From positions 119,822-183,821 of the forward strand of contig MKSU01000001.1 in assembly GCA_001897375.1 (NCBI GenBank): a stretch of 64,000 nt of DNA, in the 5' to 3' direction. The stretch is from Sphingomonas sp. 67-36. Lineage in GTDB: Bacteria; Pseudomonadota; Alphaproteobacteria; Sphingomonadales; Sphingomonadaceae. A program made the position numbers and the translations under genes. This document shows positions 33,391 through 58,328 of the stretch, piece by piece. Each line of letters starts with the position of its first letter. Position 1 is the stretch's first letter. The notes under the pieces were generated by a model, which was not told the origin of the DNA, did not search any database, and saw only the letters and a program-made list of their open reading frames with translations.

Positions 33391-33888
33391 CTATCGCGCC
33401 CCGTTCGCCGATGCGTCGTCGCCGGTGTCGCGACCCAGTTCGTCGATGATCTTCTCTAGCAAATGGATCAGCAGCGGCTTGTGGAACTCGCCGACGATCT
33501 CGTCGAGGATGCGATCGTGCGCCTCGGCGTGGACGACCAGCTTCTGGAGATAGTTCTTGCCCGCCGGTGTCAGGTTCAGGTGATAGGCGCGGCGATCGAG
33601 TTTCGAGCGGTCGCGCGAGATGAAGCCGTGCTTCTCCAGGCTCTTGAGCGCGGGCGTCAGCGTCGATTTGTCGCGCCCGGTGGCATAGCTCAGCGCGGTC
33701 TGGTTGAGGCCCGGATTCTCGTTGATCACCGAAAGGATCGCGAAATGGCCGGGGCTCAGGTCCGCTTCGCCGACGCGCTTGGCGAACGCCTGGAAGGAGA
33801 CGTCCTGCGCGCGCCGCAGCTGGAAGCCGATATAATCTTTCAGCGGTCCCAAATCGTCATCGCCTCCCTGGCCGCGGCATTGCCGCAT
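33391..33888 (-). CDS. MarR-family transcriptional regulator
   Basis: Up to 165 aa. The winged-helix core is clear: LSPGHFAILSVINENPGLNQ, TGRDKSTLTPALKSLEKHGF, then the wing RDRSKLDRRAYHLNLTPAG. The first 12 residues are poorly conserved. A TTG at 33852 with GGGAGG 9 nt upstream could be the real start, giving LGPLKDYIGFQLRRAQ. It follows the FMN dehydrogenase by 12 nt on the same strand, so it probably controls that gene and the divergent PQQ dehydrogenase through the palindrome at 35110-35127. Aromatic acids are typical MarR effectors. Confidence 0.88.
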   Translation of the reverse strand: MRQCRGQGGDDDLGPLKDYIGFQLRRAQDVSFQAFAKRVGEADLSPGHFAILSVINENPGLNQTALSYATGRDKSTLTPALKSLEKHGFISRDRSKLDRRAYHLNLTPAGKNYLQKLVVHAEAHDRILDEIVGEFHKPLLIHLLEKIIDELGRDTGDDASANGAR

Positions 33889-33900
33889 CGGATATAAGAG

Positions 33901-35082
33901 TCACGCGCCCGGCCCTCCACAAGAATCGCCCGGCCGGTGCAGTAGCGCGCCGTCGATCTCCGCGATGCGCCGGCATCCCGATTGGGTCATCGCGCGATCC
34001 AGCTCGTCGCCGAGCAGCGCGATCAGCGCCGCCGGCCCGCGCGCGCCGCCCAGCGCCGCTGCCGCATAGAGGAAGGCGCGGCCGAGCAGCACGAAATCTG
34101 CGCCGGATGCGAGGCAGCGCATGATGTCCTCGCCGCCACGCACGCCGCCGTCGACGATCAGCGGCACCGCGCCGCCGACCGCCGCGCGGACCGGCGCGAT
34201 CATCTCCACCGGCGCGGGGGCGGCGTCGAGCTGGCGGCCGCCGTGGTTCGAGATACCGATCGCATCCACGCCCAGCGCCACCGCGCGCCGCGCGTCATCG
34301 GGATGCAGCACGCCCTTCAGCACCAGCTTCCGCGGCCAGCGTTCGCGAATGCGCGCGAGCAGATCCCAGTCGAGCCGCGCCGAGCTTTGCCCGGCCATCA
34401 GCTCGGCGAGCGAGCTGGTGGAGCTGCCGGGCGGCGAATAGGCTTCGAGGTTGGCGAAGCGCGGCGCGCCGCCGGTCGCCATCGCCAGCGCCCAGCCGGG
34501 GTGGCGGATGAGGTCGAGCGCCATGCCGGGGCCGGGCCGCAGCGGCAGCGTGAAACGGTTGTTGAGGTCACGCAGCCTCTTGCCGGGTGCGGGCACGTCG
34601 GCGGTGACGACCAGCACCGGGTAGCCCGCCGCCTCCGCGCGGCGCAGCAGGTCGTCGGTGATATCGGGATCGCGCCCGACATAGAGCTGGAACCAGCTTT
34701 CCGGCGCGGCCTCGGCGATCGTCTCCAGCGCCGTCGTGCCGGCGGTCGACAGGACGTAGCCGATGCCGGCCGTGGCGGCGGCGCGGGCGAGGGCGAGATC
34801 GGTGCCCGGCGCGACCAGGTTGGCCATGCCGATCGGCGCCACCCCGAACGGCATGGCGTAGCGTCGGTCGAGCAATACGGTCGAAAGGTCGCGCGCCGTT
34901 GCTCCGGTCAGTACGCGCGGGACGAGGCGGATCGCGTCGAGCGCGGCGGCGTTGCGGGCGAGCGCGCTTTCGCGCAGCGCGCCGCCGTCGATGAAATCGA
35001 ACGCGAAGCGCGGCAGGCGCCGCCGCGCGCGCGCGCGCATCGCGTCGAAATCGCACGGAATGTCCCCGGTCCCCGCCATCAT
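33901..35082 (-). CDS. FMN-dependent alpha-hydroxyacid dehydrogenase (LldD/MdlB-like)
   Basis: 393 aa, TIM-barrel FMN enzyme. The catalytic His and flanking Arg are in GISNHGGRQLDAAPAP. The flavin-binding lysine is in LVLKGVLHPDD, the phosphate site in VDGGVRGGEDIMRCLASGAD, and the N-terminus has FAFDFIDGGA. The family oxidises L-lactate, glycolate or (S)-mandelate to the 2-oxoacid. The start at 35082 is chosen because the earlier ATG at 35118 lies inside a palindrome. It forms an operon with MarR next to a benzoylformate-decarboxylase-like gene, so an aryl-hydroxyacid such as a mandelate is a reasonable guess, not proven. Confidence 0.88.
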   Translation of the reverse strand: MMAGTGDIPCDFDAMRARARRRLPRFAFDFIDGGALRESALARNAAALDAIRLVPRVLTGATARDLSTVLLDRRYAMPFGVAPIGMANLVAPGTDLALARAAATAGIGYVLSTAGTTALETIAEAAPESWFQLYVGRDPDITDDLLRRAEAAGYPVLVVTADVPAPGKRLRDLNNRFTLPLRPGPGMALDLIRHPGWALAMATGGAPRFANLEAYSPPGSSTSSLAELMAGQSSARLDWDLLARIRERWPRKLVLKGVLHPDDARRAVALGVDAIGISNHGGRQLDAAPAPVEMIAPVRAAVGGAVPLIVDGGVRGGEDIMRCLASGADFVLLGRAFLYAAAALGGARGPAALIALLGDELDRAMTQSGCRRIAEIDGALLHRPGDSCGGPGA

Positions 35083-56455: not shown

Positions 56456-57342
56456 GCGACGATCAGGCCGGGCGTATCCTGAGCTGGACGCTCAATCCTT
56501 CGAAACCCGCCTTCGCGCCGCCGCCGGGCGCAGTCGATGCGCATTGCCATGTATTCGGGCCGCAAGCGCAATTCCCGTTCAGCGCCAAGGCCAAATATCT
56601 GCCGCGCGACGCCGGGCCGGAGGCGCTGTTCGCGCTGCGCGACCATCTCGGCTTCACCCGCAACGTGATCGTTCAGGCGAGTTGCCACGGCACCGATAAC
56701 GCCGCGACGCTCCATGCCATCGCGCGATCGAACGGCCAGGCGCGCGGCGTGGCGGTGGTCGATCCGGCGATCGATGATGTGCAGCTGGACCGGCTGCACG
56801 CGGGCGGGATGCGCGGCGTGCGCTTCAACTTCCTCAAGCGGCTGGTGGACGATGCGCCGAAGGACAGGTTCATCGACGTGTCCCATCGCATCGCGCGGCT
56901 CGGCTGGCATGTCGTGGTCTATTTCGAGGCCGACATATTGGCGGAGCTGCGCCCGTTCCTCGCCGCCATCCCGGTGCCCGTGGTGATCGACCATATGGGC
57001 CGCCCGGACGTGAGCCAGGGGCCGGACGGCGCCGACATGCGCGCTTTCCGCGCCCTGCTCGACAGCCGTGACGATATCTGGACCAAGGTGACCTGCCCCG
57101 ACCGGCTCGACGCCAAGGGGCCGCCATATGACGATTTCGTCCGCGCCGTGCGCCCGCTGGTGGAGGACTACCCCGATCGCGTGCTGTGGGGCACCGACTG
57201 GCCACATCCCAACATGCAGGACAATATCCCCGACGACGGCGCGCTGGTGGACGTCATCCCGCGCATCGCGCCCACGGCCGAGTTGCAGCGCAAGCTGCTG
57301 ATCGATAACCCGATGCGGCTGTATTGGCCGGAGGAAATGTGA
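56452..57342 (+). CDS. ligI: 2-pyrone-4,6-dicarboxylate lactonase
   Basis: 296 aa, amidohydrolase superfamily. It hydrolyses 2-pyrone-4,6-dicarboxylate to 4-oxalomesaconate without a bound metal. Conserved elements are [11 protein letters not shown], the Arg-containing [13 protein letters not shown], and the catalytic Asp in [15 protein letters not shown] overlaps ligU by 4 nt (ATGA). Order ligK-ligU-ligI matches the SYK-6 cluster, where lignostilbene dioxygenase lsdA comes next; here an aldo/keto reductase takes that place. Confidence 0.95.
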
Positions 57343-58328
57343 GCGCGAAACGCCGGATCGGTCCGTTCGAGGTCAACCCCATCGGGCTCGGCTGCATGTC
57401 GCTGAGCCACGCCTATGGCACGCCGCCGCCGCGCGAGGACGCGGCGCGGCTGCTCAACCGCGCGCTCGATCTCGGCCATGACTTCCTCGACACCGCCGCG
57501 CTCTACGGTTTCGGCGCGAACGAGACGCTACTGGGCGAGGCGATCGGGCACCGGCGCGGGGAATATGTCCTCGCCTCGAAATGCGGGATGACCGGGGTCG
57601 AGGGCAAGCGCGTGATCGACGGGCGGCCCGAGACCCTGCTCGCGACGATTGACGAATCGCTTCGCCGCCTGCGCGCCGATGTGATCGACCTCTATTACCT
57701 CCATCGCTGGGACAAGAAGGTGCCGATCGAGGAATCGGTCGGCGCGCTGGCGCGGATGGTCGAGGCGGGGAAGGTGCGTGCGATCGGGCTGAGCGAAATC
57801 TCCGCCGGAACGTTGCGCCGCGCCCATGCGATCCACCCGATCGCGGCGGTGCAGAACGAATATTCGCCCTGGTCGCGCAACGTGGAGATCGGTGTGCTCG
57901 ACGCAACTCGCGAGCTTGGCGCGGCGCTGGTCGCCTTCTCGCCGGTCGCGCGCGGGTTCCTCGCGGACGGCGTGCATTCGCCCGAGGCGCTGGAGCCGGG
58001 TGATATCCGTCGCGGCATGCCGCGCTTCCAGCCGGACAATTTCCCGCGCAACCTCGAACTGCTCGGTCGCTTCCGCGCGATCGCGGCAGAGGCGGGATGC
58101 ACCCCGGCGCAGCTTTCGCTCGGCTGGGTGCTGTCGCGTGGCGAGCATGTCGTCGCGATCCCCGGCACGACCTCGATCGATCATCTCGCGGAGAATTTCG
58201 CGACGCCGGCCGAATTGCCGCGCGAGGCGCTGGAGAAGGTCGACCGGCTGATGACGCCCGACGCCGTGGCCGGCCCGCGCTATCCCGCCGTGACCCAGGC
58301 CGAAATCGATACCGAGGAATTTGCGTGA
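57339..58328 (+). CDS. aldo/keto reductase
   Basis: 329 aa, AKR (YccK/AKR13-like) TIM barrel. The catalytic Tyr and Asp are in [15 protein letters not shown], the Lys in YVLASKCGM and the His in DLYYLHRWD; the NADPH-binding C-terminus has [18 protein letters not shown] start overlaps the ligI stop (GTGA) with GGAGGA just upstream, so it is part of the ligKUI operon. Its role in the pathway is unknown; reduction of an aldehyde or 2-oxo intermediate is a guess. A short GC hairpin follows at 58342-58361. Confidence 0.87.

Follow-up and report, generated by a model that had tools for sequence, protein, structure and literature searches.

The mandelate pathway of Pseudomonas putida (mdlABCD) uses the same three enzyme classes as the locus considered here, which occupies positions 33391-58328 of a 64,000-nucleotide stretch of Sphingomonas sp. 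67-36 (contig MKSU01000001.1; hereafter the window). In this locus, genes for a flavin mononucleotide (FMN)-dependent 2-hydroxyacid dehydrogenase, a thiamine pyrophosphate (TPP) enzyme, and an aldehyde dehydrogenase (ALDH) lie beside a protocatechuate 4,5-cleavage cluster. Mandelate dehydrogenase and benzoylformate decarboxylase are the nearest single solved relatives of the corresponding window enzymes, but the TPP enzyme of the window falls in a separate family, NF006203, and there is no racemase among the genes of the catabolic module proposed below. The ligJABC/ligKUI genes of Sphingobium SYK-6 have the same complement as those of the window, likewise accompanied by a LysR gene and split into two groups of opposite orientation; the window differs in its extra DUF1932 and aldo/keto reductase genes and in the module attached on the ligC side.

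In Rhodococcus jostii RHA1, a 4-hydroxybenzoylformate cluster (glycolate oxidase ro02984, benzoylformate decarboxylase, and vdh) contains the same series as the window. Two reports describe, for RHA1, an FMN oxidase active on mandelic acid that works in series with a benzoylformate decarboxylase and an aldehyde dehydrogenase on lignin-derived aryl two-carbon acids (PMC9811514, PMC10167727), and one of them likens the oxidase to vanillyl alcohol oxidase (24%; PMC9811514), so that it may not belong to the FMN_dh family. Compared by description, the window goes beyond RHA1 in its PanE-type enzyme, MarR regulator, AAHS-type permease, secreted front end, and 4,5-cleavage neighbors. The body of literature searched held no account joining mandelate, benzoylformate decarboxylase, and Novosphingobium, none joining mandelate dehydrogenase, benzoylformate decarboxylase, and Sphingomonas, and none joining thiamine pyrophosphate, 2-dehydropantoate 2-reductase, Sphingomonas, and protocatechuate.

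The locus holds a rare module whose products probably take up aromatic hydroxyacids and shorten the side chain of these compounds; its parts are mostly known, but their arrangement is new. We favor, with modest confidence, a reading of 33391-49192 as a self-contained module for the catabolism of an aromatic 2-hydroxyacid.

Enzymes and gene neighbors of the proposed module

This reading starts from the gene families present, a conserved gene order, decarboxylase-type residues, and the association of TPP orthologs with PanE, ALDH, nitrilases, and a gene resembling mandelate dehydrogenase. The whole module is carried by this genome and by three others, denoted G821, G444, and G822. Its regulator, enzyme, and permease genes are as follows.

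33391-33888, minus strand: MarR-family regulator at one module end (PF01047, 53 bits; order kept in G821, G444, and G822)
33901-35118, minus strand: FMN-dependent 2-hydroxyacid dehydrogenase (PF01070, 412 bits)
37239-38978, minus strand: TPP enzyme, proposed arylglyoxylate decarboxylase (three TPP domains; NF006203, 660 bits, cut-off 456)
38994-40439, minus strand: aldehyde dehydrogenase (PF00171, 489 bits)
40442-41809, minus strand: AAHS-type aromatic acid permease of the major facilitator superfamily (MFS) (top match TIGR00895, 303 bits, cut-off 418.55; PcaK model, 267 bits, also below its cut-off)
44260-45180, plus strand: PanE/ApbA-type 2-hydroxyacid dehydrogenase or 2-oxoacid reductase (TIGR00745, 251 bits, cut-off 141)

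NF006203 is an NCBIfam family without a named function, its title reading only 'thiamine pyrophosphate-requiring protein'. The next models for the TPP enzyme are that of benzoylformate decarboxylase (NF005485, 138 bits) and the best of the acetolactate synthase models, to which it does not belong (NF005760, 110 bits, cut-off 363). A single-sequence search of solved structures gave 96 bits for benzoylformate decarboxylase versus 59 for oxalyl-CoA decarboxylase, and among the best 60 of 146 matches to a profile of the orthologs, benzoylformate decarboxylase scored 164 bits and BbmA 117, with acetolactate synthases and cyclohexane-1,2-dione hydrolase at 105-111 and 2-hydroxyacyl-CoA lyase at 105. 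Residues S36, E64, and H87 are invariant in all 12 aligned sequences (window and 11 relatives, 40-91% identical), and the alignment places them at the catalytic Ser/Glu/His of benzoylformate decarboxylase, which we take to be Ser26, Glu47, and His70. An acetolactate synthase or oxalyl-CoA-type identity, the outcome against which the preliminary description had set its proposal, was not seen in the sequence and is ruled out by these model and profile scores, benzoylformate decarboxylase being nearer. Judged by its sequence, the enzyme is decarboxylase-like, yet stands outside the benzoylformate decarboxylase family as curated.

Two candidates for the preceding oxidation are present. The FMN dehydrogenase has the fold of (S)-mandelate dehydrogenase and keeps the catalytic His and Arg (His292 and Arg295); against solved structures it scored 262 bits with (S)-mandelate dehydrogenase 6bfg in one stretch, the top-listed structure being the fused double lactate oxidase 7f22, with 276 bits across four stretches. 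Its further search outside the neighbor comparison below covered the own genome, which holds one 38% paralog. The PanE-type protein scores above the TIGR00745 cut-off and so belongs to the ketopantoate reductase family that includes the D-mandelate dehydrogenase of Enterococcus, and D-mandelate dehydrogenases are reported to occur in this KPR family (Wada 2008, as cited in PMC12350541 and PMC6303947), although membership alone cannot separate a reductase from a dehydrogenase. PanE may be a more general oxidizing partner than the FMN dehydrogenase.

The TPP enzyme is rare. An ortholog was found in five of 295 genomes of the genus (E <=1e-150) and in two of 396 genomes sampled from the order (E <=1e-120), the own genome included in both counts; in a sample of 385 genomes of the class, the matches listed at E <=1e-60, own gene aside, were at most 40% identical. 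The nearest named relative, at 90%, comes from an uncultured Sphingomonas (L052), with which G1017, of the same genus, shares match coordinates. G1017 and G444 also share match coordinates and were counted once. Thirteen loci with a TPP ortholog of at least 49% identity were compared, a neighbor being counted if its start lay within 13 kb of the TPP match; L057 (a 3.6 kb contig), L062 (40% TPP), and G730 (identities as in L058, and hence treated as an identical or nearly identical sequence) were dropped beforehand, and five of ten plasmid matches were examined, H3, H5, and H8-H10 being left out. In L062, plasmid pBHB of Comamonas sp. 7D-2, the 39-40% TPP relative lies with an ALDH gene at a distance of about 4.3 kb from a gene for a reductive dehalogenase, and the interval also holds an IS3 transposase gene and two porin genes.

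PanE, MarR, and ALDH genes were each found near the TPP gene in nine of the 13 loci (for ALDH, eight orthologs and one distinct gene), an AAHS permease ortholog (at least 46%) in seven, SnoaL in six, HbpS in five, an FMN_dh-family gene in five (four orthologs and that of G991), and a nitrilase in three, all of these being lower bounds because only 1.6 and 2.3 kb of sequence follow the TPP gene in L053 and L056. In G991, genes for a TonB-type receptor, a secreted protein, a nitrilase, an MFS protein, ALDH, the TPP enzyme (66%), and an FMN dehydrogenase lie on one strand, the receptor and nitrilase calls resting on Pfam or on NCBIfam models below cut-off. This FMN dehydrogenase reaches 405 bits with 6bfg; in NCBIfam, the L-lactate dehydrogenase model comes first for it (315 bits, cut-off 376). 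A nitrilase also lies within 13 kb of the TPP gene in two of the three Novosphingobium loci examined, PP1Y (L059) and N. humi (L060), and both are 54-55% identical to the G991 nitrilase. The PP1Y record (L059, about 14650-15650) has one in-frame stop in this gene, which may be decayed or may contain a sequencing error. These nitrilases fit a step from hydroxynitrile to hydroxyacid. Together, the mandelate-dehydrogenase-like gene of G991, the nitrilases, and the PanE family favor a series from aryl 2-hydroxyacid through arylglyoxylate and aldehyde to benzoate.

The preliminary description had read the locus as a possible mandelate-like feeder made up of an FMN 2-hydroxyacid dehydrogenase, a TPP enzyme, an ALDH, and an AAHS permease. 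Pfam and NCBIfam matches bear these genes out, with the permease below the TIGR00895 cut-off, but half of the module had been missed: the HbpS-like gene, two SnoaL_4 genes, and the PanE/ApbA, CocE/NonD, Rid-repeat, small secreted protein, cupin, and pyrroloquinoline quinone (PQQ)/cytochrome c genes. The order of these omitted genes is the same in G821, G444, and G822, and the module is therefore not a chance grouping. In the window, the left arm (HbpS-MFS-ALDH-TPP) runs leftward with intergenic gaps of -4 to 15 bases and the right arm (SnoaL-SnoaL-PanE-CocE-Rid-small protein-cupin) rightward with gaps of 5 to 29 bases, and the PQQ/cytochrome c gene is on the strand opposite to the MarR and FMN dehydrogenase genes. 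A close-relative scan of viral contigs revealed no viral carriage of the module.

Several observations weigh against an aryl 2-hydroxyacid as the substrate. The TPP enzyme remains far below the cut-off of 493 bits for the curated benzoylformate decarboxylase model, its similarity to that enzyme is low, and, in a weakly aligned segment, DVPWIP in the window and DVPW or IPW in relatives stand in place of the benzoylformate decarboxylase histidine that we number His281. For the FMN dehydrogenase, the best NCBIfam match is the L-lactate dehydrogenase model (292 bits, cut-off 376), its orthologs occur in only four of the 13 loci, all four in genomes carrying the whole module, and the substrate-binding Tyr, which we take to be Tyr26 of mandelate dehydrogenase, near the substrate carboxylate, is replaced by Phe42; Phe is also found here in orthologs L052, L088, and L080, and Tyr in both G991 genes. 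PanE could instead be a reductase in another step. The divergent neighbor of the G991 FMN dehydrogenase is an LldD-type lactate dehydrogenase above cut-off, which weakens the mandelate inference a little. Ring-cleavage neighbors vary among the loci, with catechol ortho genes in L058, hydroxyquinol-type genes in L056, and a glyoxalase-fold, possibly extradiol dioxygenase, protein together with LigU in L055. For the 4-hydroxy branch of the preliminary description, no pobA was found above cut-off genome-wide (best 25.7 bits, cut-off 538.7; the same search was above cut-off in one of 14 control genomes). Lastly, seven secreted-looking proteins have no role in the classical mandelate route. The mandelate-like series that had been suggested is supported in part: the TPP enzyme is nearest to benzoylformate decarboxylase, and in other sphingomonads its orthologs have nitrilases and a gene resembling (S)-mandelate dehydrogenase as neighbors. 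The window FMN dehydrogenase itself is no close mandelate dehydrogenase (262 versus 405 bits for the G991 gene, with Phe42).

Relation to the protocatechuate 4,5-cleavage genes

The second unit of the locus (49236-58328, after 33391-49192 from MarR to cupin) comprises a complete set of genes for protocatechuate 4,5-cleavage, arranged as two divergent groups. These genes, and the tRNA gene that follows them, are listed here.

49236-50180, minus strand: LigC-type semialdehyde dehydrogenase (PF19858, 311 bits; PF01408)
50192-51034, minus strand: LigB, 4,5-dioxygenase beta subunit (NF009903, 538 bits, cut-off 317)
51034-51480, minus strand: LigA, 4,5-dioxygenase alpha subunit (TIGR02792, 204 bits, cut-off 108.6)
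51477-52496, minus strand: LigJ-like hydratase, Amidohydro_2 (PF04909, 192 bits; position before LigAB; no NCBIfam match)
52493-53356, minus strand: NAD-binding DUF1932 protein, co-oriented with ligJABC (PF09130, 75 bits)
53409-54626, minus strand: LysR regulator, PcaQ-like (TIGR02424, 210 bits, cut-off 303.8)
54730-55404, plus strand: LigK aldolase (TIGR02798, 400 bits, cut-off 304.5)
55397-56455, plus strand: LigU, 4-oxalomesaconate tautomerase (NF033377, 524 bits, cut-off 440)
56452-57342, plus strand: LigI-like lactonase, Amidohydro_2 (PF04909, 188 bits; NF042924, 216 bits, cut-off 500)
57339-58328, plus strand: aldo/keto reductase at the end of ligKUI (PF00248, 233 bits)
58416-58502, plus strand: tRNA-Leu(CAA) (ARAGORN), the landmark that the cupin end of the module abuts in G444 and G822

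The complete ligJABC/ligKUI set claimed earlier is therefore present, both LigAB subunits exceeding their NCBIfam cut-offs and LigK and LigU their equivalog cut-offs, with LigC, LigJ, and LigI assigned by Pfam family and position only. The stated distance of 14 kb applies to the FMN dehydrogenase gene (35118 to 49236) but not to the TPP gene, which is about 10 kb away. The locus is flanked by serS, dksA, and a PilZ gene on one side and by the tRNA-Leu(CAA) gene, a short-chain dehydrogenase/reductase gene, and dnaB on the other. The guanine-plus-cytosine fractions of the two units (0.692 and 0.687) are near that of the flanks (0.68), so that composition marks neither unit as foreign. The DUF1932 gene has a 4-base overlap with the ligJABC group and is kept in G821 (92%) and G822 (81%).

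The earlier claim that the feeder is joined to lig did not stand as a general statement: the physical join is lineage-specific, being present in only two of the five genus genomes with a TPP ortholog, this one and G821. In G821 (93-95% DNA identity), the gene order is as in the window; about 49 kb of extra sequence lies there between the aldo/keto reductase and tRNA-Leu(CAA) genes, absent from the window (58328-58416), which suggests a tRNA-linked gain or loss. In G822, the lig genes directly follow PilZ, and about 1.2 Mb separates them from the module, the cupin end of which adjoins tRNA-Leu. The ligC, B, A, and J genes of G822 (L086, 2830-6144) are 49-68% identical to those of the window and its ligK, U, and I 89-94%, which suggests that the dioxygenase half of this cluster either was replaced or belongs to another class. 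In G444, the module abuts tRNA-Leu on a contig with only a distant LigB relative (31-33%); two further contigs each carry a ligJABC set, one of 92% and the other of 84%. Examination of 39.8 kb of G991 revealed no lig gene. A conserved module-lig unit is ruled out by the G822 and G444 arrangements.

It is quite possible, and compatible with the favored reading of the module itself, that the two units are functionally unrelated and became adjacent only through local rearrangement near tRNA-Leu. Their separation in G822 and G444 and the rarity of the TPP ortholog in the genus speak for this explanation; on the other hand, all four whole-module genomes also carry lig genes, the adjacency is common to this genome and G821, and both units are aromatic-acid systems. 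The varied ring-cleavage neighbors and positions show the module to be portable, with a product that the adjoining genes do not fix.

As to a link between the module and protocatechuate, the genome-wide search for VanA_C Rieske proteins gave two of 159 and 130 bits and three weaker ones; the only model matched by the two best, far below its cut-off, is one for a sterol monooxygenase, and they are not identified as vanillate demethylases. A search for LigM-type O-demethylases gave three GCV_T matches genome-wide, one being GcvT by NCBIfam and two lying in frames of 988 and 916 amino acids. A 3,4-dihydroxy substrate would yield protocatechuate directly, without an extra link.

The putative secreted front end and the proposed route

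The remaining module genes, most of which encode secreted-looking proteins, are as follows.

35169-37106, plus strand: lipoprotein-like PQQ beta-propeller with N-terminal cytochrome c (PF13360, PF01011, PF13442)
41806-42333, minus strand: secreted HbpS-like protein (PF03928, 110 bits; signal-like N terminus by eye)
42569-43402, plus strand: secreted NTF2/SnoaL_4 protein 1, LdpA-like (PF13577; 8ABV, 109 bits)
43414-44244, plus strand: secreted NTF2/SnoaL_4 protein 2, LdpA-like (PF13577; 8ABV, 87 bits)
45203-47041, plus strand: secreted CocE/NonD-type esterase or amidase (TIGR00976, 474 bits)
47071-48318, plus strand: secreted Rid-repeat protein (PF01042, two passing stretches, best C-terminal; three similar repeats by eye)
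48342-48653, plus strand: small secreted protein (no Pfam match; present in G821, G444, and G822)
48659-49192, plus strand: ChrR-type cupin at the other module end (PF12973, 34 bits; adjoins TPP and ALDH in Methylocapsa L055)

Signal-like N termini, judged by eye without a signal predictor, are found on seven products: the HbpS-like, both SnoaL, CocE, Rid, small, and PQQ/cytochrome c proteins. The nearest solved relative of both SnoaL_4 proteins is 8ABV, identified as LdpA (PMC11476836), a sphingomonad gamma-formaldehyde lyase; a profile of both gave 137 bits versus 46 for BaiE. The 8ABV alignment spans the C-terminal extension shared by the LdpA subfamily of NTF2 proteins, and the Asp and His aligned with those of LdpA are kept (D70 and H124). 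The window proteins are unlike LdpA in their signal-like N termini and in forming a tandem pair. LdpA itself acts by dehydration to a quinone methide followed by formaldehyde release, according to a report that also counts 62 NTF2 homologs in SYK-6 (PMC12997858), and, with NTF2 proteins so numerous, likeness to LdpA is not function. Among solved structures, the CocE-type hydrolase is closest to cocaine esterase (366 bits), followed by alpha-amino acid ester hydrolase (164 bits). The PQQ/cytochrome c protein reaches 51 bits with the quinohemoprotein alcohol dehydrogenase 1kv9, below a designed propeller at 76. The CocE-type hydrolase and the LdpA-like proteins suggest that the hydroxyacid could be formed from an ester, amide, or dimer. 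The plain mandelate scheme proposed earlier is incomplete in these respects, as it left the secreted front end unexplained and overlooked PanE, the second dehydrogenase candidate.

A secreted-looking protein of 305-323 amino acids that matches no Pfam family above cut-off is encoded in TPP clusters that yielded no SnoaL (L058, 16177-17094; L060, 16111-17064; L091, 4568-5539), and it is 33-34% identical between Novosphingobium and G991. Its neighbor is a TonB-type receptor in L058, by annotation, and in G991, by family search, and the protein may be a functional stand-in for SnoaL.

On the favored reading, the secreted CocE-type hydrolase, PQQ/cytochrome c dehydrogenase, and two LdpA-like NTF2 proteins would free or trim the substrate in the periplasm, and the AAHS-type permease would import the acid. 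The FMN dehydrogenase (for the L form) and the PanE-type enzyme (for the D form) would oxidize it to the arylglyoxylate, which the TPP enzyme would decarboxylate to an aromatic aldehyde, and ALDH would convert this aldehyde to the benzoate, with MarR as the presumed regulator of the module. The benzoate would then enter whichever ring-cleavage route the host has available, the module here lying beside the protocatechuate 4,5-cleavage genes. In this route we infer all substrates, the stereochemistry, the periplasmic steps, and the delivery to protocatechuate.

A bolder version, which we hold to be doubtful, is a previously unrecorded pathway in which the secreted set, here the PQQ/cytochrome c dehydrogenase, the cocaine-esterase-like hydrolase, the two LdpA-like NTF2 enzymes, and the Rid-repeat protein, makes the aryl 2-hydroxyacid in the periplasm from a lignin or plant aromatic dimer or ester, with oxidation of both L and D forms and TPP-dependent decarboxylation following in the cytoplasm. 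Slightly less likely still is a substrate with a three-carbon side chain, by which oxidation or dehydration of an aryllactate or arylglycerate would give an arylpyruvate, the TPP enzyme an arylacetaldehyde, and ALDH an arylacetate, the LdpA-like proteins serving as upstream benzylic dehydratases or deformylases. The occurrence of LdpA-like proteins with TPP and PanE in six of the 13 loci, the LdpA chemistry described above, and the CocE-type hydrolase, which an ester substrate would suit, are consistent with this; however, arylacetate would not feed the adjoining lig genes, the TPP enzyme is nearest to benzoylformate decarboxylase, and G991 pairs it with a mandelate-dehydrogenase-like gene. 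Benzoylformate decarboxylase itself has carboligase activity. It is nonetheless improbable that the TPP enzyme is a carboligase or lyase of the benzaldehyde-lyase or acyl-CoA-lyase type, splitting or forming an acyloin whose products the oxidoreductases process, since the invariant Ser/Glu/His and the mandelate-dehydrogenase-like and nitrilase neighbors argue against it, even with BbmA, cyclohexane-1,2-dione hydrolase (111 bits), and 2-hydroxyacyl-CoA lyase next in the profile search and the pBHB relative lying beside ALDH near a reductive dehalogenase gene.

Returning to the favored reading, its arylglyoxylate decarboxylase would provide a testable function for the TPP family NF006203. The locus connects secreted NTF2 proteins of LdpA-like type with a defined catabolic module, and, if the periplasmic pathway were true, LdpA-type chemistry would be placed outside the cytoplasm. 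In addition, one and the same module adjoins a tRNA gene in two relatives and a cluster of ring-cleavage genes in this lineage, which records a step in the assembly of a pathway.

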